From assembly GCF_964204645.1 (NCBI RefSeq), contig NC_134029.1, positions 5,899,001 to 5,963,000 of the forward strand: a DNA stretch of 64,000 bases. The letters are read 5' to 3'. The notes below the pieces were generated by a model. The model saw only the letters and a program-made list of their open reading frames with translations, was not told where the DNA came from and made no database searches. Shown piece after piece: positions 28,901 to 62,144 of the stretch (position 1 is its first letter; each line of letters begins with the position of its first letter). A program made the translations under genes and the position numbers. The DNA comes from Tubulanus polymorphus. Lineage: Eukaryota > Nemertea > Palaeonemertea > Tubulaniformes > Tubulanidae.

Positions 28901-31496
28901 CATCACGAATACTGAAGCCAACAGGACCATAATTAGGGGAGGGGGGGGGCACTTGCCCCTCAGAAATTATGGTAAAGTACCCTTTCTGCATCTGCCTGTG
29001 CCCTTTTAAAAAATCTTTTGAATATCATTGTTATATCCAATAGAAATTAAATGTAGAATCATTCATTTGGGACTTAGGCCTACAAGGATTTTGTAATAGG
29101 ACTGACAGCATTTTTGTCAAGGCATATAAGAATTGCCTGTAACTGCCTGTTTTAGGGTTTCTCTGCTCCATCAAAATTCTAATGCTAAGTTCATGTAATG
29201 AACAGTACTCACCATGCCTGCGTTGTCCACGTTAGCTCCATTATCGATGAGCATGCCGACAATTTCCTCGAGACCTTTCCTCGCCGCCCACAATAATGGA
29301 CCCGACCCGTATTTATCGGCTGTGTTCACTTTAGCGTTGTGCTCGAGCAGCAGTTCGACGATCTCAACGTAACCGCGTCCGGCCGCCCAAATCAACGAAC
29401 TCATGTGGTGTTCGCTTTTGATGTTCGGATTCGCGCCGTGTTGCAGTAGCATTCGCACGACGTCCGTACGACCTTTATAACACGACCACATCAGCGGCGT
29501 CCAGCCACCCTGATAAAGATAAAAACATCACCGTACAGTCGGTTTCACTTTATTAGGTCATCGTCATCAGATAAGTCATCACATCACTAAAGTTGCCTGT
29601 ACTTTTGAGTGCAAAATTTGTATTTTGAATTCTCATGCATTTGACAAGTTGTGAACATAATAGGCGAGTTCAGCGGTTCGGTGTGACTGAAGCAGCCTTC
29701 AGTTCAGAGCTGGTTATTTCAGTTTAGACCGAGTTGACTGAGTTCAGCAATGAAACGGGGAACCGAGACAACTATCTAGCTCAGTCAGCCCAATCAAACA
29801 TACCTAATGATCGTCCCAACTATGATGTAAGCGAGTTTGAATGCATTTCAAATTTCATTAAGTTACGAGTTGCTTAACCCTAGAATCTTACCCCACTGTT
29901 AAAGAAATCTTGGTACGCGATCTTTCAGAAATTCACTTCTCAATAGAATATACCACTTTTTAACAGACGAGAATAGACTGGTACTTACAACATCTCTAGC
30001 TTCTAAAACTGCTCCCGAATCCAACAATGCAACAGCGATGTCAAGATGTCCGTGCTTGCAGGCGTAATGAAGAGCTGTCCAATCATCCTGGAAAGAGATG
30101 AAAAATATTGAGAAATTCACGGTGAAACAAACGCTTCTGTTGGTCTAGGTATCGTCAATGAATAGAAAGTCTTTACAGTGGTCTTAAGGGTATTGGTCAG
30201 GTACGGCTCATATACCGGTAAACTAAGCATAACTTCAGTTGGTTGCTCGTTATACAATGAACTCCTGTACAGAAACTTCAAAAAACTTATTGATGATAAG
30301 ATTTCATGACCGAGTCAACGCTTTGTTACAAAGTCTTCATTTAAAATGTCAAATGTGCTGAGTGAATATGGGCTTATTTTTAAAATTCAATACCTGGCCA
30401 AAACTGAATTTTGATAATATAACAGATCTAATCACGAAACTTGTATAAATGTCTTCACATAGACTTATTTTTTAAATAATCGACTATGCAATGTGGTGCT
30501 AGCACTCACCAGATGCCGCAACTACACATTGGGTTATTCATAGTGAAAATCAGTTAATTTTGAATGAAATTTGAACTTGATTTTTAGTCTTCCAAAACCG
30601 ATAATTATCAAACAAGTCATGGGATAGTTGTGTATTCAGTTTTCTCAATCAGTGTATGGTGTAGATTAAACTCCAAGTGGATTCACTAATGAGAATAGTC
30701 AATTTGAATTTAATTGGTAGAAAAAACTGAAGCGCCGTAACCCTGTGCCACCTGGCCTAAAGCTCGCTTGCCACAGTAGTAGCCGTTACCCCATTTAAAT
30801 TGGAGAAATATATCTGCACGGTACTTACGTAATCAACCGCGGTAACGTCGACTTCGTGATCGATCAGTTTCCTAACAACTTCATAATTGCCTTGTTGAGA
30901 TGCGGACATAAGAAACGTAATTCCATTCTGAAAAACATTCCAAATATACATTCAATAATCTTTATCATCGAATAACCCATCGAATAAATCTCACTCGAAC
31001 AGATTTTTCTGTATAGAAGAAATGGACGAAAAAGATTTTTCTTCCAATTCTTCCATACACGAGACTGATCGCATAAAAAAATGAAAATCGGAAAGTTCCC
31101 GCGTACCTCGTCTCGGTTATCACCGGATGTGGACGGTTGTAAAAGTTCTGACGTCTCCGCGGCTCGTTTAGACCGCGGAGGGGTCAATTCGGTGACCATC
31201 GGCGTCATCAACATTTCATACGACGTATAGTATTAAACTCAATTCCGTTTATTTCAAAAACTGACATTTCAAACCGATGATAACCGACGCTTAAAATTCG
31301 AACGCCGTTTTCGCTCCTATTTCGGAAATGTATACGTCGATATGGAATAAAGCGCGATGTCATAATAACGCAAGCGCAAAAATTGATCGATGCAAAGTAT
31401 TTCGTTCTAATAATCCTCCGGAGAGATTCGCGATTGTTTGATTGACCGCCGCGCGTGTGCAATTCACGTCAATACACACTATTGACTATACACGCG

Positions 31497-31543
<47 letters not shown>

Positions 31544-34500
31544 ATAATACACACGATATTGATTATCAGTAAAATACTGAAAAACCAGTACAAACTACAT
31601 GTCGAAATACACAGTCCAAATTAAGCGATTATTACGAAGGTAGTAGGTAATCTATGACCTATATATAATTGTCACGGGCCCTGGTACAATTTCGCATAGA
31701 ACAATACACAATATACGCTAACAACAAAGCATGTCCATTTGGAGTTCTCTCTAGTGCACAGCTGAATTGATAATATATTAACCAAATAACACAATATTCC
31801 AAAACCGAATATAGAAATTTATGCAGTTCGTTCGAATTGACTAATGACATCGACAGTTGGTGTTTAACTGTTCGAAAGCTCTCTTCGCTCTAATCCTATT
31901 TCACGTGTTCAGTCATAGCAGATACGAACGTGTACGTATATACATATATCGCGTATATTTCGAAAGTTTTAAAACGAAACCTGATTCCTGACTGCGAAAA
32001 AAACCTGAATAAACAATAATTGTTACAAGCGTCTAGGTTCCGCTTAAATTTTCAAACTCGAAATGAAAATTCGTCCGAACAAGTTTTCCCCATAAATTTT
32101 TCTTGTATGAACTCAAACGTACACCTTCTTCCTAGAAATGCATGTTCTTTTTCAAAACTGGTTTTCACGCTATACCTTGACATGAATTTTTACAAAGAAA
32201 TAGCCCGAATGGCAATCATGAAATGAATACCAAAAAAAACCTCTTAAGCTAACGTATGATATTCTTTTCTTTAGAAAAAAAGCTTATCGGTCCATAGTAA
32301 AAATGCAAATCGAAAAAAAATCATTTTAAAAAACGATTTTATTTCAATATAGGCCAGCACTATTTTCTAAAATATTAATACTCTCTACGCTTCAAAATTC
32401 CTAAATAGTATTGTTTATCCCAGTAAACCATCAATAAGATGGATTTATAATCAAATTTTCTTATCTTTTACAGTAGCAAAACTCGTTTTCTAATTTGGTA
32501 ACCGCCTACTTGGGTTAAAAAAAATCCAGGTACCAACTGTACCGATTTAGGGGTCTACTGTACACAGTACAGTCTTCAACAAGCTAGTCCTCCAAATTGA
32601 AGGAGCTTTATAAAAGTTTTGGAGATTTTGTTCAAATTAAAGGAGTTCCAAGCACATTTTCCGTTATGAAAGAGTTTTTAAGAAACGAAAGAGTCGTTGG
32701 TCTGGACCCTGTATAACGTAATTTCGTTTTTATCAATGTCGGATTAAGGTTGGTATGTTGGAAAAATCACTCGTGAATTAGAAATTGGAACGCGGATGTT
32801 TGTGTTGATACTACCTGCCATTTCTTAAGTGTACTTAATCTTTAAGCTAGACGTCAGGTCATCAGGTACTGGCAGTTTTTCCATCATCAAAACTCTCATA
32901 ATTCTTCACTTAAGATGATCTTAATCATTGTCTAACATAATACGAACTTAAGACGATTTAGAAATATCTCTGATTTCAACAATCAAAAAACTCAGTGCGA
33001 TACACGGCGCCCAGAATATGAAATACATGTGTAATTGGGAATTTTTCTAAAAATTTTCAAAATCGAATTCAACCTAATAATATTCAGAGTACATCAGGTC
33101 GATTTTAATGCATGGAAATGGTTTCCATGTGCTGCAGATATCGAGGTATACCTCTAATTTTTGAAGCCAGCCCACTCGTTTATTTACGTAGTAAAAGTTT
33201 ATTCTCTATGAAAATTTCTTAAATGCTATAAAACTTTCTTATTATCTCTCAGTTGTTTAGGTGTAGTGTGGATTTAAAAAAATGTTATTGTCTTCATTGT
33301 TTTATCTTTGAAGGGCTTGATCTCTTATCTCTTGTCAGATAAAGAGCTAACCTTTAAGGAAGCTCGTAAATCATCGTAGAACCTAATACGACAAAAGTTA
33401 CCTCGCAAAGGTGGATAATTTTCCTAACGTAGAGGGCCAAGGAAATAACTAAGGGTCCATGGACACCGTACAGACTTGAAAACTTCAACAGGCCCATATT
33501 GAGGGGGTTTGGGGGTTCGAAACAAACAAACCCACACCCCGCTCGCCGACAAAGGTCCACCCGGATCATGCCGGCCATAAGAAAATATGAGCATTAATTT
33601 CAAAAGATGCACTCATTGGTAACACATTAGTTCATTTGTTTTTGTTCGAAATGAGGTCAAATTGTAGAAAAATAAGCCAAATTTTCAACCCAAAAACTGT
33701 AGGCCCTATGCAAGAATTTGTGTAATGCAAGAATTTGTGTAAATTGCTCTCTTTTCTGTGGGAGCACACCCATGGCCAGACATTTGCATGAGCACCTTAC
33801 AAAAAATTCCACTTTCTTGAAAATTGAACCCCCAAAAGACCGTGTTGCTACGATACGTATTCCTGAAGATGACTATCATGTTAAATAGTCGAAACGTCGA
33901 ATGAATAAATCATTGCTTTAAGGAGACTTTTCAGACCTCATCTTTCTCATTAGTGTGGGATTCTCTAGTACATAACGCAATAGAAGTTATTCATACAGTA
34001 GTATGAATAAGTTATTCATTATAAGGGATTAAGTTATTCATACAGTAAGCATATATCTTCAATAATGAATTAGTTCATCTCGATGACAACAGATGTCACG
34101 CACAATCACTGAGTGAACACAAGACAAGCGACGACTTTAATCACGATGTATCGGCGGACCTAATCGCTCTACTGACAATTCACCGGGTTCAAAAGTTTGA
34201 CCAGTGTCAGTCGTAGGCTAGATATATCAATCAACAAATGGACATTTCCTTATCGCAGTACTAACGTCAATTCTAGCAAATACAAAGCCATTGTATGTAT
34301 CAAGCTATATAGATTATGATCATTAATGGTTCATATATTTGGCAACAGTTCCTCCTATGTACATTATACTTAGAAATAATGAAATCAATCCCACATCGAA
34401 TGAAAAAAATGTTTCTGCAAACCACAATTTGCAATTTATTTCAGCTGCATTCATACGTAGCTATTACGGCTATTAAGGCTAAAATACAATGATTCATTGT

Positions 34501-34808
34501 TTTTCCTAAGCGGCCGTGACATTGTTATCAGTTCATTTCTATAAATGCCAGGTTTGTGATGGTTAGCTTGATCATGATTTGAAAAAAAGTAATGTACAGG
34601 GCAGATAGACAGCCGGCTGGGTCAAATTATAAGCTCGGCAGTAATTAGACACTAGGTATAAATTTTCTTAGCCTAATCCGTAATTCGTACTCACTTCATC
34701 TCGTTCATTGCCGATGACTTTCCTTTCTTTAAGCGCGTTTAAAATATCGCTCAAATCTTCGACGTCGGTTGCCGAGAAAATTCCCTTTTCGCTGTTCGTC
34801 GAAGTCAT
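16942..34808 (-). CDS. KIDINS220: Kinase D-interacting substrate of 220 kDa (ARMS), 20 coding exons
   Basis: KIDINS220/ARMS is a membrane scaffold for neurotrophin and Eph receptors that links them to Ras/MAPK signalling. Exons in transcript order: 34808-34695, 30927-30829, 30087-29989, 29509-29213, 28857-28759, 28665-28567, 28137-28024, 27776-27579, 27058-26881, 26723-26559, 26431-26252, 26139-25989, 25880-25735, 25319-24604, 21477-21270, 20601-20439, 20357-20179, 20017-19937, 19126-18963, 18600-16942. The phases close to 1702 residues (human about 1771). Eleven ankyrin repeats cover about residues 39-430. The KAP NTPase has Walker [13 protein letters not shown] (about 470) and Walker [11 protein letters not shown] (about 775), with two pairs of membrane helices inserted (exons 11 and 14). 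[11 protein letters not shown] and [13 protein letters not shown] follow. A SAM-like domain (about 1161-1230, [10 protein letters not shown]) precedes a long charged tail ending DTYLV. One small exon in the 3.1-kb intron 14 could have been missed. Confidence 0.95.
19618..19787. mobile_element. piggyBac-like MITE, 170 bp
   Basis: TTAA plus CCCTTTGACTGC at the left is matched by GCAGTCGAAGGA plus TTAA at the right. It belongs with the elements at 2320-2902, 20942-21111 and 23963-24258 by its CCCTTT start and TTAA duplication. It lies in a KIDINS220 intron. Confidence 0.7.
20942..21111. mobile_element. piggyBac-like MITE, 170 bp
   Basis: Left end ATAACCCTTTCAGTGCATCGG and right end GCACTGAAAGGGTTTAA form inverted repeats of the same family. 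The left TTAA has decayed to ATAA. It lies in the KIDINS220 intron between exons 15 and 16. Confidence 0.65.
22200..22255. repeat. AAT/ATG microsatellite with palindrome
   Basis: A run of AAT units passes into TGATAATAATATCATTATCA, which is self-complementary. Simple sequence in a KIDINS220 intron. Confidence 0.8.
22748..22903. mobile_element. Tc1/mariner-like MITE, 156 bp
   Basis: Left CAGTAGAACCCGCTTAATTC and right GGATTAATCGGGTTATACTG are inverted repeats with TA on both flanks. The TIR resembles that of the 5086-5222 element (CAGT, AACCC, TTAAT). Non-coding, in KIDINS220 intron 14. Confidence 0.7.
23241..23604. mobile_element. Nested inverted-repeat element with hammerhead-like core
   Basis: Outer ends GGCCATTTCACAGA and TCTGTGAAATGGCTC are inverted. 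An inner pair, GTTTTAAAACCAAGAATTTAT (23351) and its complement ending at 23513, encloses a loop. Read on the minus strand, the loop contains CTGATGA, a short stem (GATCTC/GAGATT) and GAAAC. A related but inverted copy of the motif follows on the plus strand. The element is in KIDINS220 intron 14 and has no coding capacity. Confidence 0.55.
23963..24258. mobile_element. piggyBac-like MITE, 296 bp
   Basis: TTAA plus CCCTTTCAGTGCGTCTAC on the left pairs with AAACTGAAAGCG plus TTAA on the right. Internal CACCGCAGTG/ACTGCGGTGTA motifs recur three times. Same family as the other TTAA-flanked elements here. Confidence 0.7.
28308..28530 (+). repeat. Dispersed repeat, copy 1
   Basis: This 223-base segment (AAACTGGGTTTCTAGTTTGG... 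TTCAAATTAAAGGAGTTTC... TTTTCCGTTTTGAAG) is matched in the same orientation at 32478-32700. It lies in a KIDINS220 intron. The family is not recognised. Confidence 0.7.
31107..31214 (-). CDS. KIDINS220: Alternative first exon of KIDINS220
   Basis: An ATG at 31214 opens 36 codons ([20 protein letters not shown]...) ending NRDE at GAG|GTACGC, phase 0. The first exon at 34808-34695 ends NERDE at GAA|GTGAGT, also phase 0. Both therefore join the same ankyrin exon ([14 protein letters not shown]). No pyrimidine tract and AG acceptor is evident just upstream, which favours a transcription start over an internal exon. The peptide looks disordered, whereas the distal exon continues an ankyrin-like helix. 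The isoform would be 1700 residues. Confidence 0.65.
31499..31541. repeat. (TA)n microsatellite
   Basis: An uninterrupted TA run of about 43 bases lies roughly 285 bases upstream of the proximal KIDINS220 first exon. Its position near a candidate promoter may be accidental. Confidence 0.95.
32478..32700 (+). repeat. Dispersed repeat, copy 2
   Basis: Same-orientation homologue of 28308-28530, starting AAACTCGTTTTCTAATTTGG and containing TTCAAATTAAAGGAGTTCC. Both copies are in KIDINS220 introns about 4.2 kb apart. Confidence 0.7.
33863..33897 (+). other. Hammerhead-like hairpin motif
   Basis: CTGAAGAT, a stem GACTAT/ATAGTC with an eight-base loop, then GAAACGTC. The layout imitates the CUGAUGA-stem-GAAA core of hammerhead ribozymes but the core is not exact. 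It lies in KIDINS220 intron 1. Confidence 0.25.
34474..34676. mobile_element. AAGGCT-ended MITE
   Basis: AAGGCTAAAATACAATGATTC at the left and TATAAATTTTCTTAGCC at the right are imperfect inverted ends. The interior (GCTTGATCATGATTT, AAAGTAATGTACAG) is shared with 57224-57437. It ends about 19 bases from the splice donor of the distal KIDINS220 first exon. Confidence 0.6.
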
Positions 34809-34932
34809 TCTAGAATTCAATCTCTCAAATTAACTGAAAGTTAATATTAGTATAAGTTGAAAATTTGGTGGTAGTACAGGCAGGTGGCGAGGTTTGTTTT
34901 TAGAAAGGGAATATTTATAGTAACAGTCACTA

Positions 34933-35165
34933 CAGGGGCGGATCCAGGGGGTTCCGAGGGTTCTAGAATTATGTCGAGGTTTGTCTGCGCCCCTGGAGAT
35001 GCCTCTTAATCCATGGATTTGACTTAAAAATGCCCCAATTTGGCATGATTTGGCATAGGAAGTGCCCCTGAAAACCCCTAGTTTGATGTTAAGTGCCCTA
35101 TTTTGCCGTGATTTGAGAGTGACCTACGGTGCCCTCCTAAGGCCTTAGGCCTGGATCCACCCCTG
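34933..35165. mobile_element. hAT-like MITE with 5-bp target duplication
   Basis: Inverted ends CAGGGGCGGATCCAG and CTGGATCCACCCCTG are typical of non-autonomous hAT elements. CACTA occurs directly outside both ends. It is 233 bp, non-coding, and upstream of the distal KIDINS220 first exon. Confidence 0.75.
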
Positions 35166-36849
35166 CACTAGGCCCATATCTTAGGGCCAACACCAAGTTA
35201 AGACTGCAGTTTAGCAATAAGATCATCTTGCTGTATGTACTCTGGTGTTACTTAGTCTAAAGATTAAGAGTCAGGCCTAGGTTCCGGGGTTAGGTGCTTG
35301 CTCCAACAAAAAAGGCCTACCATGGTTAGAAATGTAAGCCTACTAGGGCATTGGTTAACTTAAACCTGGTTAGGTCTGAGATATAGGCCTAACTTTTAGG
35401 GACACCTTAATGACAAGAAGGTCCCTCTCCTAAAAACCAAGACGAGGTTAGTTCCTGAACAAACCAGGGCCCAGGCGGTATGCCCGGGCCACCGGGGACC
35501 TGACACAAGGTTATTGGCCCGGGCGGCTATTTAACCTAGCAATAGCATCAGGTCCATGATGAATATAAAAAAAATCAACACCAATCACACATAAATCAAA
35601 GTTTGAAGCGATAGGGAGTTAAACGATGATCATAATTCAAATTCAAAAACAAAAGAACTCTTTTAGTCTTTGAGTTTGAACAAAAAATTTGATTGAATTG
35701 AATGAAAATTTGACAGTTAACTTACATTTTTACACGACAAGCAGAAGAAGCCGCGGATTCGGCTTTTAACGAACACCACAATTTCACATTATGTATGACA
35801 TAGTTCGATTGATAAGTGAAAGCAATCTTTGACCAGGTTAAAAATTGGTCAGTTTTATTATTTACCCTGCTGAATTGCAGGGGTAATGACTTATTCCAAG
35901 CTGGGAACGGAAGGTTCGAGGCGTTCAGGTTCGAATCCCATAATTTACATAATTTGTTAGATTGTTTGGGAGTATCCCACATGTATCCCATGTACTAGTA
36001 ATCATTTGAAATGGGTATTTCCATTCTAATTTATTTGATTACATAGGTATTTGGTGTTTCCATTCCAAATGGTCACACCTACAATGAAACCTGGGAATTT
36101 TTCTGATTATATAGCCAACAAAAGTATCATCTCTAGGTAGGCCCTACTATATCGAATTAATCTTAGGTAAAAGTGCAGATCCGCACCTCTTGATCGCGTA
36201 AACTTAATTTAATAATACGTATAACTTCTAATTCTTAAGAGATCCTGAGTTGTATCTCAGAGAATCTTCATCAGAACACAATCAATATGACCTATAATAT
36301 AGACAATCAACAGAATATTTGTAAATAAGTATTCATTTACTGTTCACAATTTTTAAAAGACTGAAGTCTTTCAAGCAGGGTAGATTTAGACGGCGCTGTA
36401 ACGGAGACATCCTGAATTGTATATCGATATTTTCGAAGCCACACGTAGTACAGGTGCCCGCAGAAGCGTTACCTAATAGTTTTGGTCGAGTTTCTTTCTT
36501 GATTGGTGTAAAAATCGACTTTTAAGCGGTCCATGGAACGTAAATCGAGACACGAGGGTTCGTGAAAATGATTCACGGGCCGGCCGTGAAAAGCAGTTAA
36601 TTTTATAGCAGGGCAGTGAAATGGGGGTGTTACTAAAAATGACTATGGGCTACTAAAACGAAGACCTATGCACTTCGGGTATTAGAACTATGCATGACTA
36701 TAAGAAGTCCGAAGATACTCGAAATCCTCACTTGGGGCGCTCTGTACCACCTCTGCCAGAAACGTAAATTGCCTGGTCGGTTTTCTCGGGTGCATAAAGT
36801 CTTCGTTTTTAGTAGTGCTTCGTTTTAGTAACACTGTTGCTTAACTAAA

Positions 36850-39400
36850 CGAATGACAAATTTCAAAATCAATCATATTTATTCTCATACAACAATTGTA
36901 CAAAATGCCAGGTTTGTGCTCGAGGAATTATAGTGTAAGCTCCTCAAACAAGGACTTTCAAAAACAACTAGTCCAACCACCATAGGCGTATAAACTAGAG
37001 AGTTTATACGCCCATGGTCCAACCATAGACTCTAAAACAGAAACGTCTATGGCCCACAACTATGGACTCTTAAACTGTGAGTCCATGGCTCCCGCACTAA
37101 AACCAGAGATAAACCTGGCCAAATACTCTGGAAAGCGTAGGATTAAGTAATCATAATCTGATTTACATTCTTACATCATTTTATTTTGACATATCATATT
37201 AACTTATAACATATAAGCTTATTTTCTCAAATTTTAATAGTAATTTTATTTCTAATACTATGCATGAAATTGTACTAACTAAAAACAAAGTTACATGTAA
37301 GGTATTTTTATTTAAGACTTTATCTACGATACATTTCCACTACAGCTGATTTATACAATTTGCATCAATAGGAAAATAACAAAAATACACAAAGAATTAT
37401 AAACTTTGATCCATAAAAAACCGAAAATTGGACTAGTCTAAGATTATGAATTTGACAATTCATGAGGTCAATATAACCGACATTTTGTTATATTTCATGA
37501 AATATGAATCTATCATGTCAACTTTTCAAATGACATCGATTGAGGACATCTCATTTATCGAGAAAAAACTCAACTTTATTCGATAGGACCTTAATAAATA
37601 AACGTTTTATGAACAATTGACATGAACATGTCATTTGATCTCCACAACAACAATTATACCTAAATGACAGGTATTCATGTACTGGAGGAAGTGCCTCAGT
37701 CATTTACAAAAACGTGACCTGTATTTTAAAAAGTCACCAACATAAAAACATTATAACCGGAGATAAAACCACAAATTCAATCTGGAAAGCTTAAGAACTT
37801 AACTAAACAGTCTTTTGATTTAATTTTCATTAACATTTTTTTACAAGATAGCTAGTTTTGCCACCTTTGCCTTGTCTTTAAGAGGTTTCAAGACATTATC
37901 AAATTGGTTATTTTCTCAAATGTTACATTTAATGCAAAGTATTTTTAAGGTATTCTCTTCTATGCATACAGCAAGAGTATATCAATATTGTTCAACTGCC
38001 AAGTGAATAGAGCTAGGGCAATTACTAATAACTAATGGCTTTGCTACAATTAAGTTAAGATTCAATAAATAACTTTTTGAGGTGCTTCTTGTGCAGATAT
38101 TTCAGAACCCATATAGACATTGTTAAACAATGGTTTTAGAGTCCATTGCTAGCATAATCTACTGATTAATACTGTTCATATATCCTCATTTATCAAGAGA
38201 CTGCTCCTCTATTTTGCTACTCTATTTTCCATAAGGGCCTTAATGAAAATAGAATTTTATGAACCAATGATGAACACCACAGTATGAATGACAAAACATG
38301 TATATCATTTTATTCTTTCACAACAATTATACCCCGCTAAATGAGTTATTTAAAAAACAGTTCAACATAAAACTTACAAATACACTCACTCTGGAAAGCA
38401 TAAGGTAAACTAATTACTCTTAGTTATTACAAGAAAACTAAAGACATTGCGAAAAATTTCCTCGTCTGAGAGATTTCTTTAATTATCAACTAGCTTATTT
38501 CACAAATGTTACATTTGAAACAAAGCAGGGTCTGATTTAAGCACTAGTCCAATTGCCCGGGACAAGTATATTTTCATTAGGGCATGTAGGTTATCACAAT
38601 CACTTGTCCACCAGGCTCGTGTAATTCTATATCTCAAAGCTTTTATCCCAATCGATGCAAGGGATGATTGTGTCTCAATCGGACTACTCATGTAGGGCAA
38701 GTTGATTTTTGAGGGGGCAAGTGATATTACATATGCTTGCCCCAAGGTCAACTGGCATTTGTTCCTTAGATCAAACCCTGCAAACTATGCAAACTCAATA
38801 TAAAGATCAGAAATTCTTCTTGTCCAGATATTACAGGCCCCACACAGATGCGGTTAAACTGATAATCAAAACAAAGCTAGGACAATTGACCAATTAGCAC
38901 TGTATCCTCGAGTTAGCCTATCAAGAAACTGCTCCTTCCATTCTATCAGTATTTTATGAACCACTGAAAAGCACCACAGTGGAATTGTTGCTAAGAAATT
39001 AACAACTTAACAGTTTCAACATGAATGATGAAAATGTACATGTTTCATTCACACAACAATTATATCTTATTAAACGAGGAATCATCATGCAAGTTCCTAA
39101 TTTCCAAACATGCATTATGTGTTACAATAACAGTCTCCAACATAGAGCATTAAAAATAGAGATGGAACATACAGATTCACTCTGGAATCTAAGTATCAAC
39201 TCATCATTACTTTCACTAGAAAACTAGAATTTTGCCTACTTTGCCCTGACTTAAAGATGTCCAAGCACCTTGGCATTAAATACTAAGTATTCTGATGTTT
39301 TTTTCTGGCAGCTCCAAAAACATCAACATAATCATACAATCGGAAACTAATCAATAACACCAATAACTTAAGTTTATAGCTGTTTTACATTCTTTCTTAA
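36850..39400. repeat. Degenerate tandem array, units about 0.7 kb
   Basis: Two anchors recur in the same order. CAACAATT-type words are near 36892, 37648, 38321 and 39051. TCTGGAAAGC/TCTGGAATC words are near 37127, 37781, 38389 and 39180. Other shared words (ATTTTATGAAC, TTTGCC) fall between them. The spacing of 0.6-0.8 kb suggests four old copies. I did not align them formally. Confidence 0.6.
36985..37012. repeat. Perfect 12-bp stem hairpin
   Basis: GGCGTATAAACT, loop AGAG, AGTTTATACGCC. Short imperfect inverted repeats of CTATGGACTCT/AGTCCATGG follow within 100 bases. Confidence 0.85.
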
Positions 39401-39939
39401 AAGTAAAATGTATGTACTAGATTTTAGACAGTAAGTCCCCCCCCCCCCCGTATAACAATAAACAGTCACAGCAGTGATTGAGCGCAGCTAGATCATAGGA
39501 CGGTCGATCTTTCATCACAGTTATTCAAAGTATTCTATCATATCAGTTATTTTCTTAAGTGTGTTCGATTTAGTTAAGGTTTATGGTTATTTGTTTTGTT
39601 CATTACAATAACTGAGTCCGATAGAATGCTTTGAATAACAACAGAAAAGATCTGGGGTTTTCGCTACACTTAGGGAAGGTTGTTCGATAAATGAATAACC
39701 TTGTTGATAAATATTTGAAAAAATGCCTTTTCATGTAAATAGAATATCAATTTGTTGTTTGTTTGTATTGTTGTTTATTATTTTTATCTATTTTTTAATA
39801 TTATCTATTTATGTATGTACTTGTATTTTGTATTATTTACTACTTATTTTTTATTGGGTTTTTTTATTTATTTTTTTATTAATTCATGTACTTGTAGTTT
39901 GTATTATGTATTATTCATACTACTCTATTTACAACTGCA

Positions 39940-40173
39940 GGCATTTTTTCACTGTAAAGTTTCTGGGCCCATTTTAGAAAAGCACTACCGATTCACTGCC
40001 ACTGCCACTCCTTATGATCATTATACACCCAATTTGAAGCTAAGTGATTATTCACGAGAGCCATCTTGTGATATGGATTTACCCATTACAATAAAAGAAG
40101 TTCAAACAGCTATAAACGATGTTAAAACGTTCAAAATTAGTCCTAGCTATAACTTTATGCCTTGTTATTCCTA
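39940..40173 (+). pseudogene. Possible reverse-transcriptase-linked fragment of a LINE
   Basis: The frame contains DLPITIKEVQTAINDVKTFK, resembling the segment just before the fingers of many non-LTR reverse transcriptases (ITxxEVxxAIxxLKxGKSPG). The KSPG part reads FKISPS, and the frame stops about 20 residues later. The rest of the frame upstream is low-complexity hydrophobic sequence and I do not trust it. Confidence 0.25.
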
Positions 40174-40779
40174 GCTTTACCTCTCATATGTAAATAATCG
40201 TCTCCTTTCAAATAAAGCTTTTGATTTCAAATACGTAGCTATGATCATCAAACAGATTGATGGAGGCTCAAAGTTAAAACTCGATGTGAAAGTCGACATA
40301 TGCGATTCAATTGTGAAATCAGTTACATGGGCCTTCGAAAATATATATCCATCAAATTAATACATCTACAATTCAGCAAATACTTAATATTTGTACATCA
40401 ACACTGGCCTAACGTTATGTTCTATGTTTCCTAACTATATGATACCTCCACGGACAAATAGTCATAGTTGACTATGTTTAAACAATGGTAAGGTTTAAAG
40501 ATTAAACTCACAATATCATGTTGAAACTATATCTCAGTTTAGGAGTTAACTCAACAGACCTGCGAGCCCAAACAAGGCGCTCGACGCGACCATTTACCCC
40601 TAGTGACTAACCTAACTTGACTTCTCTATCAACCAAGGATCGAATACCAATATCGTGAATTAATGGAGCTTAGCTTTTATTAGACTCTCACATTGCATTA
40701 AACATTATAAAATAATATCCTTTAAGACACTATATCAGACTGGTTTGAAAAAGGGTGATAAGTAAAAAAATCAATACTT

Positions 40780-41040
40780 TACGACAGAAATCCGCTATTG
40801 TCTTTGCCGCTCCTGGATCTCAGTGTTTATAAGATGCGCTATTGTTTATGCTGCTCTTAATAAGATACACTATTGTGTTTGCTGCTTTTAAAACAGTGCT
40901 TATCCTGAATCAGTGTTTATGAGATAATCCATTAGCTTTGTCGCTCGAATCAGTGTTTATAAGTACTATAGTACCTGCTGCTCCTGATAACATATTTTAT
41001 AGAAATCAACCACCGTTTGTAGAAGAATCAATCGTTGAGT
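40780..41040. repeat. Degenerate short repeats with CAGTGTTTATAAG
   Basis: CAGTGTTTATAAGAT/CAGTGTTTATGAGAT/CAGTGTTTATAAGTA recur about every 60 bases, alternating with TTGTxTTTGCTGCTC. They adjoin the 240-bp satellite. Confidence 0.55.
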
Positions 41041-43040
41041 GATAAATCTGTTACTGGCTCCTCAACTTCTAATCTGGGCTTCTGCAGTTTTCATCAGCAA
41101 ATGGGTCAATCAGTATTCATCTACTTGTAGATTTTCTGTTGAGTAGTTGATCTCAAGCTGGGTTTTTCTCATAGTTGATATTTAGCTGCAATAATTAAAA
41201 GAAGACATCCTGTAATGACCAAATATTTCAATAAGAATTAATCGTAATAATTTCATGTATATCAAGTTACCTTTTATGATTGCTTGGTTCGTTATTGTGT
41301 GGATCATCTAAAGTTGGTGGGTTAATGAGTTCGATTCTTTTGGCCTCATCTGTGCGTAATTAAAAGAATAATCATAATTAAAAGAAGGCATCCTGTAATG
41401 ACCAAATATTTCAATAAGAATTAATCGTAATAATTTCATGTATATCAAGTTACCTTTTATGATTGCTGGTTTCATTATCGGCGATTATCTTATTAGTTGA
41501 TTGGTTAATGAGTTCGATCCTAGTTGGCTGTGCGCCGTACAAGTTAGTCGATTTTTGACGAGTAGTTGTTCTCAAACTGGGTTTTTTCGCATAGTTGAAA
41601 TTTAGCTGCAATGATTAGAAGAAGATATTCTGTAATGAATAACGTAATAACTTCATGTATATCAAGTTACCTTTTATGATTGCTTGGTTCGTTATCGGTG
41701 TGGATCATCTAAAGTTGGTGGGTTAATGAGTTTGATTCTGTTGGCCTCGTGCGCTGTTCAAGTTGGTCGATTTTGGACGAGTAGTTGATCTCAAGCTGGG
41801 TTTTTTCGCATAGTTGAAATTTAGCTGCAATGATTAAAAGAAGATATCCTGTAATGACCAAATATTTCAAAAAGAATTAATCGTAATAATTTCATGTATA
41901 TCAAGTTACCTTTTATGATTGCTTGGTTCGTTATCGGTGTGGATCATCTAAAGTTGGTGGGTTATTGAATTTGATTCTGTTGGCCCAATCTGTGCGCTGT
42001 TCAAGTTGGTCGATTTTGGACGAGTAGTTGATCTCAAGCTGGGTTTCTTCTTATAGTTGAAATTTAGCTGCAATAATTAAAAGAAGATATCCTGTAATGA
42101 CCAAATATTTCAATAAGAATTAATCGTAATAATTTCATGTATATCAAGTTACCTTTTATGATTGCTGGTTTTAGTATCGGCGATTATCTTATTAGTTGAT
42201 TGGTTAATGAGTTTGATCCTAGTTGGCTGTGCGCCTTTCAAGTTAGTCGATTTTTGACGAGTAGTTGTTCTCAAACTGGGTTTTTTCGCATAGTTGAAAT
42301 TTAGCTGCAATGATTAGAAGTAGATATTCTGTAATGAACAAATATTTCAATAAGAAATAATCGTAATAATTTCATGTATATCAAGTTACCTTTTATGATT
42401 GCTTGGTTCCTTATCGGTGTGGATCAACTAAAGTTGATGGGTTAATGAGTTTGATTCTGTTGGCCTCGCGCGGTGTTCAAGTTGGTCGATTTTGGAAAAG
42501 TAGTTGATCTCAAGCTGGGTTTCTTCTTATAGTTGAAATTTAGCTGCAATGATTAAAAGAAGATATCCTGTAATGACCAAATATTTCAAAAAGAATTAAT
42601 CGTAATAATTTCATGTATATCAAGTTACCTTTTATGATTGCTTGGTTCGTTATCGGTGTGGATCATCTAAAGTTGGTGGGTTAATGAGTTCGATTCTGTT
42701 GGCCCCATCTGTGCGCTTTCAAGTTGGTCGATTTTGGACGAGTAGTTGATCTCAAGCTGGGTTTCTTCTTATAGTTGAAATTTAGCTGCAATAATTAAAA
42801 GAAGGCATCCTGTAATGACCAAATATTTCAATAAGAATTAATCGTAATAATTTCATGTATATCAAGTTACCTTTTATGATTGCTGGTTTCATTATCGGCG
42901 ATTATCTTATTAGTTGATTGGTTAATGAGTTCGATCCTAGTTGGCTGTGCGCCGTACAAGTTAGTCGATTTTTGACGAGTAGTTGTTCTCAAACTGGGTT
43001 TTTTCGCATAGTTGAAATTTAGCTGCAATGATTAAAAGAT
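41040..43040. repeat. Satellite array, ~240-bp units in A-A-B order
   Basis: ATCAAGTTACCTTTTATGAT occurs at about 41261, 41444, 41661, 41900, 42143, 42380, 42619 and 42861, so the array has about eight units with a period near 240 bases and two shorter first units. Type A continues TTGGTTCGTTATCGGTG, type B continues GGTTTCATTATCGGCG. B units begin at 41444, 42143 and 42861, with two A units between each pair. The whole therefore repeats as a trimer of about 700-718 bases. No open frame runs through it. Confidence 0.85.
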
Positions 43041-43583
43041 GATCAGTGAGGTCCCCTAAGTTGGTTGTCTAATTTTACATTTCTTTGCTCTTTTTTCGTG
43101 TAAATAGTCCGAAAGTTTACAAGGTTTAAGATAATTTCGTCTAATTTTTACATTTCTTTGGTCTTTTTTTTCATGTAAATAGTCCGAAAGTTTACAAGGT
43201 CGTAATTTTGTCTAATTTCAAATTTTTTTGTAGTTTAAGTTTTTTTTAAATCGGAAATCGAAGTACAGATATAGTTGTGTGATCGGCGGTCGATTTCACA
43301 TAAATTTCTTTTTCTTTAAATCCGAGCACATAATTGGGAAATTTGGTTCCGGTTCATTCAATTAATCTTCCAACCAGTCTGAACCGGTAAGCGACTGATT
43401 GGGGTCAATTAAGTTGACTGCCTATTTCAATACATCGAGATTTGGAATATCTATATTACAAGGTTGAAGATCATTTTGTACATTTTATGACTAGTTGATT
43501 AGTAGTATAGCTGAAAAAAGAAGAGCAGAGTCTTGTGAGCAGAAAATCCTTTCAAATATCACTGATAATAATTAAGGTGTCAA

Positions 43584-43587
<4 letters not shown>

Positions 43588-43640
<53 letters not shown>

Positions 43641-43672
43641 ATATATATATACACATATATATATATATATAT
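43588..43672. repeat. (TA)n microsatellite with ACAC/GTGT palindrome
   Basis: A long TA run is interrupted by TGTGTATATATATATACACA, which is self-complementary. It may form a cruciform or be prone to length change. Confidence 0.95.
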
Positions 43673-43699
43673 AAGATCAGCAATGTGGACCGGTAAGTA

Positions 43700-46000
43700 G
43701 ATTATGAGTAGATTATGATAATAGTCAATTATTAAACAATATCTATATGAAATTCAACTCATATCGTAATTCATCTATATTCTAGATATCTAAGCAACGG
43801 TTGATTATTATAGTTTAACAACAATTCCACTAAAGCATCTCTAGTCATCTCTAGGAATACCAGAGTTACAACAAATTTAGTAATGCATAATCAATCTTAT
43901 CAAATTGTTTTTGTACTGATTCCCAATATACATTTCGATTGTCAGCTAAACCATTTTCGCATTATCAAATTAACTTCATCGTCAATTAATAAACTTTAAG
44001 AGATATGTTTTCTACCCACAGAAGGCGACACCTGTGCCCATGAATGTTATTCTAATCCATTCCAGTAATTCTAAATATTGCTCCTAATATATATCTTGTA
44101 ATTATGATAATATAACAAACTGTGCGTTGCCAGCATTGAGCACACTGATCCTGGTCAACATGGTTCTACAGATTTAAGAAACCTTGAATCATTCAAACGC
44201 CTTGACAAATCCAGAATTCTGCAAAGCCTAAAAAGATTCAATAAATCCCACGTCTAAGAGACAGAGCGTGAACACACCCTGTTTTCTTTAGATATCAACC
44301 AATTAGATTATACAGTTTTCTTATCAACCCCTACGGTTTAGATTTGAGCACTTTTACCTTATATGAAGATGCTGAATCACTCAATTTATTTCCTAGCTAT
44401 AATTAAAATTGTCTCTGACAATATTTTATACGGGGCTTGATATTTCTACACGACAAGAATTTCAGATCTGGTTTTGATTGATCACTATTTCAAAATGCTT
44501 ATTTTGCATCAGAGCTTTTGATATCTAGTTTGACGAATACAGAATTCCCCAAAACCTAACTGATTCAACAGATCCCACACACATGTCGCCCAGTTATGAC
44601 GCAGGTGACATTGCACGTTACAGTCGTCTCATCCACTGCACTATCTTTTAAATACTTTTCACTTATATTCATTACATTGAATTAATTTTAATTAATCTTC
44701 TAGATATCTAAGCGATCCGTTTATTAGTAATCATACTAGCTACATTTTAATAGTCAGTTGAACATGGAGCCTGAAAATCTACATGAGTACAATTTCAGAT
44801 GTGGTGAATTCATCACTCTTTAGAATTCATCAGAAATTAAGATAAAAGCACAATTAAGTGGTAAATAAGAAATTCCCTTAAAGCCGAATTGCTATATAAT
44901 CTTTATTTCCCTTTTATAGTAGTACACTGTGTGTAAGGACCGAAAGACCTTGTTATGACCGGACCTCCCTGGTGCGGTGCAAGACATGATGCTAGAAAAT
45001 AGTTTGAAGGAGAGGGGTTAGTAAAAGAGAGCTATTAGCAAGAGGACCATAAGCACTGCAGTTGGAGATGGAAATACTGATCAGTCGATGAGACTGATTC
45101 AGATGTGCTCATACATATATCAGCTATATTTAAATTTTCAGTTTTACGACATTTATATTATGGACCTGTATTACATACCGTATAAATAGTTTTTGATCTT
45201 AGAAATATTGAATCCATCTTAATTGTGGATTTAAGCCATTGGTTAATGAGCAATTTTTCCTAGCTATATATGATAATTGTCAGTCAAACAATAATCAAAG
45301 CACAAAACAAGGCACAGAGTATGGCTTTCGGGAATGATTTGAACCAATTGAAGCTTTGTTTTATTCTAGATTTGTCAAAGTGCTGAGACCTAATCAGAGT
45401 TTCAAAAAGACCCACAGTCCATAGTTTTCCCCATATATATTACACCAGATCTCGATCTAGTGTCCACAGCCCTAGACACTATTTTATACATCTTTCCCCC
45501 AGAAATTCATCAATGCAATGGGTAAAGCACCATATAATATATACTGTGAAGTGCCTGAATGTTTATAAGTGACATATAAATGACATATGTATCAATATAT
45601 TATTTGTAAAAAAATCTATTTACTGACGATAAAGTTTAATTGATATATAGGCCTATCTTTACACGTAAAGCCAGCCTTAATGTATATGGGGCCCTAAAAT
45701 ATCTACACCAGAAGAATTTTTCATCAAACATTATACGATATTGAATGATTGCTAATATCTAAGCAATTGGTTAATTAGTAAATTGTCTTATCTATATAAT
45801 CAGTTAAACAATAGTCATATGAGGCCTGAAATATCTACGGTACATTCGAAAAATTTCAAATGTCACATAAGATATTGAATTTACCTTAATTGTACATACT
45901 TACAAAATCTTTTAATCAATAACTGACCAATCTACATTTTAATTATCAGACCAAAAAATATTTAAGGGACCTCACTCCTAAGTCCTAAGGGACATTGCCT
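43700..46000. repeat. Worn repeat field
   Basis: Similar phrases recur at irregular spacing: GATATCTAAGC near 43788, 44702 and 45768 (with TTA...ATTAGTA after it), CCTAGCTATA near 44391, 45260 and 46000, and GGCCTGAAATATCTAC-like words near 44430, 44767, 45689 and 45820. This looks like an old tandem or duplicated array that has diverged. No coding signal. Confidence 0.45.
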
Positions 46001-46479
46001 AGCTATATTTCAATTTACTACCGGCCACAGAGCTTCAATAAAGGAGTGCGGAGATGGTGAGCTTGACCAGCGTCTCTATCCTCTCCAGTGCCTATGCATT
46101 CTACCCCAGATATGAAAAATCAACTTAGCTTTATGTATGTATGCATTCCTGTTGCCATGCAGGATGAGGTCAAGACTGCCAGGTTCGGTTGCGGCAGGTC
46201 TTTGGTGGTACTTCAAGGTGGAGTCTTTTGTGGGCACTTCTGGTGGGCAGATTTAAGATGGGCCTTTCCGGATTAACCTGAAATGAGTAAAAGAACAATA
46301 TTCTGTAGTTACATAATCCTTTCCGTATCACTCATCGTAATTTACATGTGAATCAACTTAACTGTCAATATTGCTGAATTTAGTGTTCTTTTTTCGGCAT
46401 CGTCTTCGTTGTAGTCACCTTCAGCATCAACTTCTTCATCTCGGGAGTCCTGAAATGAAAAAAAAGAGAAAAGCGATGA

Positions 46480-47292
46480 AAACCTGGTACGGAACAAAAC
46501 TAATGTCCGAAAGCTTTTCAGCTCTCCGTTGCCGGTCACATGCCGAGAACACCAGACAAAGAGCCAGCCAGAAATATACTGCCCTCTACACACCCTCACA
46601 CAGAACGTGAAAACCAATATGACGACGCCTTACTTTCACCATTTACCGACAGGGTGTGCCGGGTGACGACAGTAACTGACAAACCTATCAAATTACCCAA
46701 GCCAAAAATAGGGCAGCGCAACTGGATTGCCCACACTAGCACTCAAAGGAAGACAAGACTTAGCCCTGCCCGAAGCAACCCACGCGGAATCAATGAATAC
46801 TAACACTCAAAGGAAGACAGGAAAATTAATCCCTGCCCGAAGCAATCCCTTAAAAGGAATCAATGAATGCTAGCACGTAAGCGATCCCGCAGTGAATTAA
46901 TGAATCCTAGCACGCAAAGGAAGACAGGGAAATTAATCCCTGCCCGAAGCAATCCCTTAAAAGGAATCAATGAATGCTAGAACGCAAAGGAAGACAAGAC
47001 TAAATCTTTGCCCGAAGCTATTCCTGAAAAGGAATCAATGAATACTAGTAGACAGTCAGGCTTTACCACTCCACTTTTAACCCGTGCAATCCGACTGATT
47101 TGCCCGTCATTGACGTCACCAAGCACACTCTGTTGATACGTGGGGAGAGTGAGGCCTCGTCATCCTGGTTTTCGTGTTCCGTATAAGGGCGTGTAGAGGG
47201 CAGCCATTTCCTGACCAACTCTTTGTCTGATATCCTCGACACGTGACCGGCGAAGGAGAGCCGACGCTTTCAGACATTAGTTTTGTCCCAGC
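46480..47292. mobile_element. Foldback structure enclosing ~70-bp tandem repeats
   Basis: About 140 bases at 46480-46616 (ACAAAACTAATGTCCGAAAGC... GCCGGTCACATG... CTGCCCTCTACAC) recur in inverse orientation at 47153-47292 with moderate identity. Between the arms, at 46736-47050, AAAGGAAGACAGGAAAATTA... GGAATCAATGAATGCTAGC repeats about five times. It is non-coding, and the arms may be ends of a foldback transposon. Confidence 0.6.
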
Positions 47293-49601
47293 AAACGTTG
47301 AAATTCGACAGAGAAATCGGCCCTGAAAAATAAAACGGGTTAAATCCTGAAAAATAGAACGGATTAATAAACACGGAACAGTACAGGACAGTACGGAGAC
47401 GAACAGTAACACATAAAACATAAAGACATCGTTCCTCAGGAAGCAGGAACAGGAGCAGGAGCGGGAGCGCAGCGAAAATTGCCAGGAGGAGAACCCACGG
47501 TAGCATGTTCACAGTGTGAGTAAGCCGAGGTGAATGGCCTATGCTTACGTACACCGTGGTCAGCCGGTGACGTATCCAATAGCGCGTATAAATGATATCA
47601 ACAACTCTTGTGCCTCTATTGTTGAATGGATTTACATTATGAAAGGTTCCACTGCCGGGTTGAATACGCGCCAGTAGTCAGCTGAACAATATAGTGGAGG
47701 AACTTTAATAAGGCCATGAAATAAATTACTTTATTCCCAACAGCTACCTGTTTTTTCTGCTTAAATTCTAGAATGATTTATAAATTATACCGACCGATAG
47801 CACTTCAGTTAAAGATTCACACCAACACAGGTCTTCATGTACCCCGAGATAACTAACTCACACCATGCACGAGAAAGCGGTCTATTTGAGTCATTGGGGG
47901 GAAAACCGTTCATTCTTTAAGCCAAGTGGCCTCTCAGGGCAGGTTCTGGAAAATCTGCAGAATGACTCATATGCATTCATACCGTTATCACAGAATCCCG
48001 TCAATAGAAAAAACTCCTTGATTCAATTGAGGGGAGACATAGGCTTTTTTAATTACTTGGAGCACCGATCATCTTAAATTCTGCCAAAACTCATGCTTAC
48101 CACTCATAATTTTAAAAAAAACAAATTGTTTTCTTTAATATTGATACTGTACTGCAGATTATATTAAACGGTACATCATCATGTAAATTTAGGAAAGTCC
48201 ATATTAGAATTTCGTTTCTTGTTCCAAATTACTCTTATCCCATTTTTGATTTTGGTCAGAGTATGGCAGTATCAAATCATGCGTACAGGCTCAGTCTGTC
48301 CATGAGGATACTAGTTGTGATAAGTCAGACAAGTCATGATTAGGCATTGATGCAATTCACTAAGTGAAAAACTGCCACCTGCCACTTTTTTCCGCATTAA
48401 GTGTTAAATTTTGCTTAAGCATAAAAAATCATTTCATCATTGATGCCGGTCCTCTGATAGAAGAAAAATAAACTCAAAAGAAAAACCATTCAGTAAATGA
48501 TAATACATGTAATAATATTGAGTTTATTAATCACAATGCAATAAAAGTGGTAATTTTCAATTTGCCTCGTGCAAATTCATACACTCGTGGTTGTAATTTG
48601 GTCACAATTCTCTGGTGCCATTTTGCCTTTTAGAATCGGATTATTTCACAGGATCATCAAATACCCATTTCCCACAGGCAGTTCACAAATCATAATTAAC
48701 TCATAAGTAATTATTTGTTTTATGCGCACTCAATACAAGGAATCTGTAATTTTTTGCTATCCTCTCCTGGTGTTCCTTTAATATCCTGATACAAAAGCCA
48801 ACAAGTATAAGACAAAGTGTCAAAATAATTATCTTTATTCTATAAAATATGGGCTGCTCGTCCAGCAAGCCAACCATATACATGTATACTCAATTTCTAC
48901 ATCTCTATCACCGTATAAAAATAATTTCCAATTGTTAAATACATTAGGGAAATAAATAGACAAAATAAATTAGAAGACCAAATACTGAACTTGTAATACC
49001 TCTACTACAAATAATTTATGTATCGGACATTTCCTTCTTCGCGTAAAAGAAGACGAAAACATTTTCGAAATTAATACGAAACACAACCAATATATCGAAC
49101 AAACTTTCTTTGTGTTAATCAGTGTAGTATCAACAATCGAAATGACAGAAAGTAACAAACAGTAAATTCCACCAAATTTAGATGATCTGTTGGAATTGAT
49201 TATTCTATATTGATCGATTGTTCACGGAAGACCCGAATGATTTTATAGACAAGTTTTAGGGTAGAGTGGAACCTCATTATAACCAAATTTGGATTTAATG
49301 ATTTATCAATTATTACTAATCTAGAATTTGGTTAAAAACGGACAATTTTGATAATTCCATACTGGATATAACGAAATAACAGTTATAAAGAATAGATTTT
49401 CTGGTACCTTTGAAGTTCGTTGTAACGAAATTCCATAGCATTCAAAACCAGCACTGGATTTTGATGTAGTTTTTACATATATATGTTCTATAAAGTACAG
49501 ACATGGATATTTTTTCATCATGATTTCTACGTTTTATCCACTGACACACAGTTCAGTCGCGGCGAATAAGTTCTCATGGTAACAATAAATTCAGTTCAAA
49601 A

Positions 49602-52600
49602 TCAAGATTTTGATTTTAGTACAGCTCGCTCTGCTTCTCGAACTTTCCTGAGTTTTTTGTCTTGATCTTTCATCAATTGAGCCATTTCTTGAAATAAAAG
49701 AACACATTTTTTACTGTGATTTTCATTTCCACTTAAAATTTGTATACTATCGTATACAGCTGGGTTCAATATGAAATCCACAGGTGGAACGCGAGGTCCC
49801 TAATCAATAAACGCCAAGACATTCTCTGCGAAATCTTACCTCTATTTTCATGTTTCAAATGAGCTCCGACTAATGACAGATTTTGTATTTTCTGCTCTAA
49901 ACGCTGACACAGTTGCTGCGATTCCGAGGCCATCGACGAAGCTGTTGACTTTCTCCCAATGTTGCTACCACTCGACCGATGGTTATACGTTGATGATAGC
50001 AATGTCGGTTGTGGTTTTGATGAACCGTTAACTGAAAATATATATATATACATGATATATGAAAGCATTTTTCAAGATACATGTTCAAAAACTGGAAATC
50101 ATACCGGGGCGGTTAAGTATTACTCAGAAAAAGAGTTAAGATTAGTTTATTATCAGTGTTCTAACTGTAGTCAAATCTTAACCCTGAACTTGGTGTCGGG
50201 GTCAGTTGGTTATAAACTTAACCACCAGACCATTGTTTCGACTAGTATCCTAACATTCATCTCCAGGAATTTCGCAAGAAATAGCTCAAGGAAAACTTTC
50301 GGATTCATTCTCCCTCTCCATATTGCAGGATTTAACCATATGAAATATTCTTTGGCCAAGTGGCAAAAATCTGATCAGCACAGGTGAATGCGGTATCTTT
50401 AACTTACATGCCGTTGATGTAAGTGGTTCTCGCGGTGAAAGTAGATCACTGACTGGCGATAAACGCCCAGTAGTTTCATCCTTTACAGGACTCTGTACCG
50501 AATTCATCTCGAGATAGAGATCCAACTTTTGCGGTGCCGAATGTCGCTGGCAATCAGTTTCAAACTGGACCGTTTTTGGACTTCGAGATGGTGGTCTAAA
50601 AATAAAAAAATTGTATTATCTCGATGAACAAAAATACATCTGAATACGAGAAAGAATTCTTGCACTGGTTTCAGATCATTGACAAAACTGCTTACCGTTC
50701 CTGAGTGTCAATATTGTTGTTATTTGTCTGGGCGAGATTTGTACTTTGGCTTATGAGGGCTCGCATTTCATGCAGTAAACTTTTCAGCTCTTGTCCAGCG
50801 CCATCGACAGGCACGACGTTATCCTAGAAAATTCATGCAAAGATCTGTTTATTACGACGCAAGCGGAAAAGTTAAGCTTTAATCGCAGAGGAAGAATTTG
50901 ATACAACGTACCCGTACCATGACTTTGCTATCACTTGTTGATGGAGGTACAATAGATGTGTGAGCATTGAACAGTTGAGGACATTGAGAACTAATCATGG
51001 GTGGCAATTCTCGGTTTAAAGATCCGGTTCTTAGTACTTCCTGTAAAATAATGATTAATACACAATTTAAAAGAATGATCTTTCAAAGATATGAATTCAA
51101 TTTTTTCTCATCGGATGAGCGACAGACAAACCTTCAATTCTAACTGATGTTTCAATTTCAGACGCGCGATATCTTGTTCTAACGCTTCTATTTGACTTTG
51201 TGCCGCTGCGTTCTTCAATGTAGCCTGAAGAAGTTTCATGAGTATAGTCTTCAGTAACAACTTTGACTCGCTAAGAAAAACTTAAACTTTAGGCTACCTA
51301 AAAATTACCTTTTCATAAGAGGATGCAGTTTTCGACGTGTCCTCTCGGATATCTTTGTATTTTGTTATGTACATTTCCAGTTCTTTTGTTAGCTTCTCGT
51401 TCTGAGCACCGGTTGTTGTTACGAGGGATGCTAATTTCTCATTTTCTTCCTCGTGGACAGTTTTTTCCTATGCAAATGTAAATAGAACAAATTTAGGCAT
51501 GGTAAAAGAAGTGTGATTCATTCTCGGTCTGAAAAATATACTATACTAATTACCTTTTTCAAAGATTCTATGCATTCTTCCAGCCAGTATATTTTGCTAT
51601 GCAGTGAGTCCAATTGACCACGTTTTGCTGTAACTTCTTTCTGCATTTTTCCAGCTGCCTTCATCGCTATAATTACAAAGAGAAACAATACTAAATTCAA
51701 GCTTAATATATGAACAACAACAGGGCCTGCTATCATAGTTTTCGGTAAAAGTTTGAATTCAGAGTTGAAATATAGGAAATAAACTAATTCTTAATCTTTT
51801 CGAGTCAAACCTAAGCCACAACTGAAGAATGGTACATGTTCTTTCATATAAACACCTACCTTTTCCTCCAAATCCTTCTTTTCTTTTTAAAGCTTTCTTA
51901 GCAAGTTGAAGGTCCTTTTCAGTGGCTACAATATTCATAGATAACCATGTTAAGTAATTCAACACAAATCGGGAGGTGATCTGCTCGGATTGGAAATAGA
52001 TCCTATCATTCCTACCTTCTAACTTTGTGACAAGTTTCTTCACTTGTTTCTGCATGTCACCTTCGGTTCCATCGAGCACCTTTTTCAACGCGTCGAGTTC
52101 GTCCTTCAGGAAGGCGACTTCATATCGACTCTCTTTCAACTCGAGGAACAGACCTTCTTTATCAGCTTTGATTTCTTCAGCCTCTTTAACCTTCATCTGA
52201 GGAAATAGAAAAATGATTTTCTATTCAGCAACAAGCAAATCCGTAAATCCTTGATTATCTCATCATCAAGATAATTACAGTAATATCATCTTTCATTTTT
52301 GCCGAATCTGCTTCCAGTTCTTTCAGACGTTTTTCGCGAATTTTCAACTTTCTCAACACGCTGTCTCGTCCGACTTTCAGCTCTTCGATTTCGGCGATCT
52401 TTTCGTTGATCATATCGCCGAGTTTTTCGTGTTCGTCTTTCATCACGTGCTCGTGGCGAGATTTGATTTCGAGCGCGCTCGTCACTTCCTGAGACTTTTT
52501 CAGCAGCGTTTCCAGATCGTGCTTCTTTTCATGAACGTCGGCGCGAATGTCTTTCAGCTATGAAAAATCACAAATTTCAGAATTAGGAATTCCTAGGACC

Positions 52601-61984: not shown

Positions 61985-62144
61985 TTTCAATTATCAGCTG
62001 AAAAACAGGACGAGAATCGGCATTAAATCAAAACCAAATGAGCCAGTGATTGCAGTAGTGTTCCTTTAAAGGTTGTACAAGAACAATCAAACCGGCTCTC
62101 TAGGGCCTAACTCTTCATTTTTCAACATACCTCTCTGTGGTGGG

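Follow-up and report, generated by a model that had tools for sequence, protein, structure and literature searches.

Does a short array of diverged repeat units lying between two genes represent a satellite in its own right, or is it one part of something larger? The question is raised by a locus in the nemertean Tubulanus polymorphus, within a 64,000-nucleotide stretch of DNA that was analysed as a whole and is referred to here as the window. The left neighbour of the array is a KIDINS220-like gene on the minus strand (16942–30144), with a SAM domain (E=2.4e-28), a KAP domain (E=2e-20) and ankyrin-like exons, and the right neighbour is a gene for a long coiled-coil protein, also on the minus strand (~49766–62000, with ORFs at ~49.8–62 kb).

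Units and trimer of the window array

The array extends from 41190 to 43026 and is made of eight ~240-bp units that follow one another as A B A A B A A B, with unit anchors at 41259, 41442, 41659, 41898, 42141, 42378, 42617 and 42859. TRF calls a 239-bp array at 41643–43043 (5.8 copies, 87% matches), while the true extent is wider on the left. All units are read on the plus strand. The first, U1 (41190–41375), is of A type and has lost ~55 bp on its right side. It is followed by U2 (41376–41609, B type), U3 (41610–41828, A1 type with a 20-bp deletion), U4 (41829–42071, A2 type), U5 (42072–42308, B type), U6 (42309–42547, A1 type), U7 (42548–42789, A2 type) and, as the array's last unit, U8 (42790–43026, B type), which is identical to U2 over 234 bp. 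The B units U2, U5 and U8 share 97 to 100% identity with one another and the A units U3, U4, U6 and U7 share 93 to 98%, whereas A and B units of the window are only 81 to 87% identical and differ consistently at 22 columns. An earlier, sequence-only reading of this DNA had described ~240-bp units of two diverged types with B at every third position, and in this it was right.

Unit phylogeny, which had been proposed as a check on that reading, was carried out and gives three groups, (U2, U5, U8), (U3, U6) and (U4, U7), that correspond to positions within the trimer, with bootstrap values of 1.0 for the B clade, 0.81 for U3 with U6 and 0.74 for U4 with U7. In this tree the A and B types separate, the B units cluster and neighbouring units are not the closest relatives; trimers are more alike than neighbouring units. 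Among the four full A units, the split of U3 and U6 from U4 and U7 is backed by 8 columns and either alternative split by 0. There are therefore two sub-types at the A positions, and the trimer is better written A1-A2-B. The ~0.7-kb trimer is itself repeated, as had been proposed: U3–U5 and U6–U8 are 96.6% identical over 698 columns. Mean identity between units stands at 0.949 for lag 3, against 0.874, 0.868 and 0.864 for lags 1, 2 and 4 respectively, and lag 3 is the sole lag that departs from random (exact p=0.012 against all 40,320 unit orderings). With monomer types in a fixed order and multimers more alike than adjacent monomers (96.6% for the trimer versus a lag-1 mean of 87.4%), the array has the structure of a higher-order repeat, albeit one of only ~2.7 trimers.

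The array as part of a dispersed repeat

The window's own assembly (267.8 Mb, 77 contigs) was searched with the array and its flanks, and both flanks were found to belong to one dispersed non-coding repeat. The left flank (36203–41189, plus strand) is common to tens of loci at ~85–97%, with matches at at least 40 loci and homology that reaches back to 36203 in the window. The right flank (43040–48618, plus strand) likewise matches tens of loci, and the order and orientation of the flank matches are constant across many chromosomes. Immediately to the left of the array is a 30-bp marker (41078–41107, plus strand) with 108 matches genome-wide at up to 3 mismatches (reversed control, 0), spread over all 12 large contigs and in both orientations. 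For a 29-bp core of the unit, with up to 2 mismatches allowed, there are 857 matches (control, 0), which amounts to ~0.2 Mb of units in the whole assembly. On contigs C1–C5, 56 of the 61 exact unit cores are oriented like a marker that they follow on its downstream side at a distance of up to 5 kb, and 0 lie near a marker in any other arrangement; an exact core is found within 2 kb of 33 of the 50 markers, a pairing that is a lower bound since exact cores alone are listed.

The same tandem repeat is thus found between the same flanks, in the same orientation, at many unrelated loci, as is characteristic of a tandem repeat carried in a dispersed element. Given the marker and core counts, the empty controls and the position of 56 of 61 cores downstream of a marker, the array is an internal module of a dispersed repeat and not a free-standing satellite. 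The claim of the sequence-only reading that the array lies between two genes stands, but it does so inside a ~12-kb dispersed repeat, and the picture of a short free satellite set between two genes has to be given up, since the array is one component of such an element and its A-A-B order is local to the window copy (see below). The analysis thereby corrects the reading of the array as a free satellite beside genes.

The host repeat spans at least 36203–48618 in the window (12.4 kb) and ~19 to over 40 kb in other copies. The copies examined end at differing points on the left and right sides, and the window copy is truncated on both: on the left at 36203, and on the right near 48618, where other copies run on. 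Two stretches that other copies carry are missing from the window copy, one of ~200 bp (at 36367) and one of ~170 bp (at 36554). Directly right of the array lies a minor tandem repeat of the element (43067–43230, plus strand) with a 75-bp unit in 2.3 copies. Further right is a module (46275–47749, plus strand) that contains an imperfect ~190-bp inverted repeat (46494–46683 and 47099–47286) together with 64/107-bp tandem repeats. This ~1.5-kb module is also seen at loci where the remaining host element had no match, and it may be a nested mobile element. Weak internal similarities ~590–740 bp apart are seen at 37500–39100, and they suggest that an old, degenerate tandem repeat may have given rise to the left flank itself.

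The outer ends of the host repeat were sought at C3/C1, at C11 and at C8/C4/C12 and were not found there; every candidate end turned out to mark, or may mark, a place where a single copy is truncated. For this reason the sequences AAAAAGGGCTC... and ...GGGGGAGCCT, which had been considered as termini, were rejected as true element ends. Neither the window copy nor the other pieces examined contained a recognisable coding region or transposase, or a reverse transcriptase or helicase gene of the kind that an autonomous transposon would carry. Candidate ORFs of the window copy gave no significant Pfam match. At the other loci first examined, the one open frame of at least 130 aa beyond the window's own is a neighbouring GPCR-like ORF. 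Rfam returned chance microRNA-like matches in the (AT)n run alone, below the gathering score.

These properties also bear on the possibility that the copies arose by segmental duplication of a single non-coding locus, for instance a large non-coding RNA gene, with no mobile element involved. Such duplications would be compatible with copies that stop at variable points, with the failure to find either outer end and with the absence of a coding region, and two copies on C8 that lie 28–30 kb apart do resemble a local duplication. However, some 108 marker copies on all 12 large contigs and in both orientations speak against this explanation, and the copies inspected adjoin unrelated sequence, such as the GPCR-like ORF at C8:9.903 Mb, which fits transposition better. 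We consider segmental duplication unlikely as a general explanation, although it could account for some copies. Copy number, dispersal and unrelated neighbours indicate that the host is most likely an old non-autonomous transposable element.

Array length and unit order in other copies

If the array were a satellite seeded from elsewhere, large arrays of the same unit would be expected at other sites, for example at centromeres, and the sequence-only reading had recommended a search for them. The largest arrays found lie between the same two flanks as the array of the window. Their lengths, taken as the distance between the flanks where TRF and BLAST place array at both ends, are put at ~16 kb (C8:10610803–10626794), 19 kb (C6:2591061–2610029), 21 kb (C8:9876799–9897451) and 33 kb (C6:8067329–8100585). 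Dividing these lengths by 241 bp gives ~66 to 138 units per large array. These counts are inferred, save for a 7-kb stretch sampled midway along the 33-kb array, which consists of 29 uninterrupted units. Exact unit cores occur all along the 19-kb array. The expectation of large arrays elsewhere was therefore not borne out, since the biggest arrays found are inside host flanks, with the proviso that centromeres may be missing from the assembly.

In the higher-order repeats of primate alpha satellite, diverged monomer types stand in a fixed order and the multimer is more alike than neighbouring monomers. The window array shares both of these features, but it differs from alpha satellite in having ~2.7 multimers, an order of its own in each copy, and no megabase arrays or centromeric location seen in the assembly. 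It could be supposed that the array is an outlying piece of such a conventional higher-order satellite, with its main arrays at centromeres and a piece seeded between two genes. The trimer structure is real, and classical higher-order satellites do grow by block amplification. Against this, all but a few of the unit cores checked are inside the same host repeat, the 857 cores of the assembly, which may lack centromeres, make up ~0.2 Mb of units, the largest arrays seen, put at ~33 kb, lie between the same flanks, and the trimer is not common to most other arrays. Taken together, these points make a centromeric origin very improbable.

Unit variants could be compared among copies by tiling overlapping loci into 23 stretches with agreeing overlaps, from which 192 units were cut out. 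Sorting all of these into A or B by best identity was tried and abandoned, as 36 of the 192 units remained undecided because units are mosaics; block haplotypes were used instead. Along the unit, the diagnostic positions group into four blocks, each linked internally but only loosely linked to the others. The common haplotypes are AAAA (38), bbbb (30), Abbb (28), bAAA (25) and AbAA (23). Since haplotypes are mosaic in this way, A and B do not form two clean lineages across the genome, and the clean A/B contrast of the window is one sample of a wider range. The nearest neighbour of a unit carries the same block-II type in 182 of 185 scored units but lies in the same array for only 113 of 222 units, and mean identity is 0.88–0.92 within arrays versus 0.89–0.91 between arrays. 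The near-equal identities and the neighbours in other arrays imply that the variants predate the spread of the copies or were exchanged between copies.

Unit order was tested in 13 arrays at up to six lags without correction, so that isolated p values of 0.01–0.05 mean little. Period 3 is found at C9:11146574 (0 of 2000 shuffles as good), and shuffling gives lag 6 at C11:10096265 (p=0.006) and lag 5 at C8:14767281 (p=0.0075). Apart from the window and C9 arrays, the pattern found is lag 2/4, lag 5, lag 6 or none at all. No significant order was seen in the sample of 28 units from the 33-kb array, nor in several further arrays. A higher-order satellite would also be expected to carry one multimer in homogenised form throughout long arrays or at different loci. 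This was not observed in these arrays, as orders differ between copies.

This variety also bears on the idea that A-A-B was already the order of the founder element and was inherited by all copies. A and B are present in most arrays, and the array at C9:11.147 Mb has period 3 as well, as inheritance would predict. Its trimer, however, is built of the haplotypes bAAA bbbA bAAb and that of the window of AAAA AAAA Abbb, and the remaining arrays have other periods or none. We regard an inherited order as improbable. The A-A-B order is local to the window copy and is not a property of the satellite family.

Block duplication and comparison with known systems

How a local order can arise is best seen where copies can be compared directly. 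The left flanks of the two neighbouring C8 copies (~28–30 kb apart) are 97.7% identical over 2.2 kb beside the array, and their units 1–6 are collinear and 99.6% identical over 1435 bp. In copy 2, units 2–7 are repeated as units 7–12 at 98.7–100%, with the next pair at 97.4%, and this 5-unit block duplication is absent from copy 1. Copy 1 in turn has lag-3 (100%) and lag-5 (99.6–100%) repeats that are absent from copy 2. At C9:11.147 Mb, a 3-unit block is repeated at 99.6–100%. Repeats confined to single copies in this manner are direct traces of recent multi-unit duplications. Growth by multi-unit blocks, which had been proposed from the window alone, is thus supported in related arrays by recent 3- and 5-unit duplications at 99–100% identity. 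The A1-A2-B trimer of the window, at 96.6%, is best interpreted as an earlier duplication of this type, and its A-A-B order therefore as a local product of block duplication.

We conclude with considerable confidence that the array is an internal tandem array of a large, non-coding, multi-copy repeat and that it evolves in place by block duplication and loss. The element would have been dispersed by transposition with unit variants A and B already in its array, and in each copy the array would then have evolved in place. Blocks of several neighbouring units would have been gained or lost via unequal exchange or replication slippage, two processes that are indistinguishable in these data, and short tracts would have been exchanged between units. 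In the window copy, a three-unit block A1-A2-B would have become the duplicated block, giving rise to the A-A-B pattern. No host function is needed for any of these steps.

Comparable systems have been described in other animals. The foldback element Tetris of Drosophila virilis carries ~220-bp TIR-220 repeats, whose amplification on the spot has produced arrays with as many as 66 copies (PMC4079207); the term 'higher-order repeat' is absent from the text consulted. As in Tetris, an internal tandem repeat of a dispersed non-coding element has here given rise to satellite-like arrays in place. TIR-220, however, is located in terminal inverted repeats, whereas the present array forms one block in the interior of its element, and the window showed no terminal inverted repeat. 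A second, inverted copy of the array, as expected of a foldback element, was not found in 34000–50000, where the small inverted repeat at 46.5–47.3 kb is without units; the outer ends are not reached. The closest known systems also include the bivalve Pearl elements and, grouped with them, the non-autonomous Cg_HINE Helentrons of Crassostrea gigas, whose satellite-like central repeats consist mostly of up to 5 units (29 in the longest), with monomers mostly of 138–180 bp and short flanks that carry the terminal features (PMC7492417). The oyster paper does not use the term 'higher-order' (PMC7492417). Like Cg_HINE, the present arrays are dispersed through the assembled (putatively euchromatic) genome and keep a constant orientation between element-specific flanks. 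Unlike Cg_HINE, they have ~240-bp units, from a few to ~138 units per array, and flanks of over 4.9 and over 5.5 kb. As for the features of Helentrons and HINEs, namely subTIRs, a left-flank microsatellite and a 3' hairpin or palindrome near the array, the flanks here are kilobases long and carry a large (AT)n on the right, and their outer ends are not reached. The mechanism is as in Tetris and Cg_HINE, in that a tandem repeat inside the element reached many loci and grew longer at some of them; the differences are longer units, far longer flanks, larger expansions and a higher-order structure specific to each copy.

The locus is thus of use as a record, kept by nature, of the way in which higher-order structure begins, and not as an element of a new kind. 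What is known of higher-order repeats comes mostly from finished centromeric products, in which the early steps have been erased. We suggest tentatively, and at slightly less than even confidence, that the present family is an open record of their beginnings, in which around a hundred separate arrays began with two unit types in common, swap tracts inside units and have each settled on a duplicated block of their own (of 3 units, of 5 or none), and in which some have grown from a few to over 100 units with no sign of centromeric location. Many small arrays from one founder, with flanks that can be aligned, can show which block sizes were duplicated and when this happened relative to the flanks. 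The block-duplication model of higher-order repeat origin can accordingly be tested by direct comparison of copy with copy.

Other repeats were noted at the edges of individual copies. In the right outer part of one copy (C8:14727550–14731549, minus strand, positions 2007–2679 of that piece) there is a 92-bp satellite with very many matches elsewhere, notably on C10, C12 and C9 and often toward contig ends. Beyond the left side of the C11 copy (C11:10110901–10116900) lies a dense cluster of ~75-bp tandem repeats that are arranged in larger blocks and include inverted segments. A ~520-bp piece of the element's left part recurs on C3 at 443408, 487802, 558543, 602339, 677613 and 723437, with spacings that alternate between ~44–46 and 71–75 kb, which suggests a large tandem segmental duplication.
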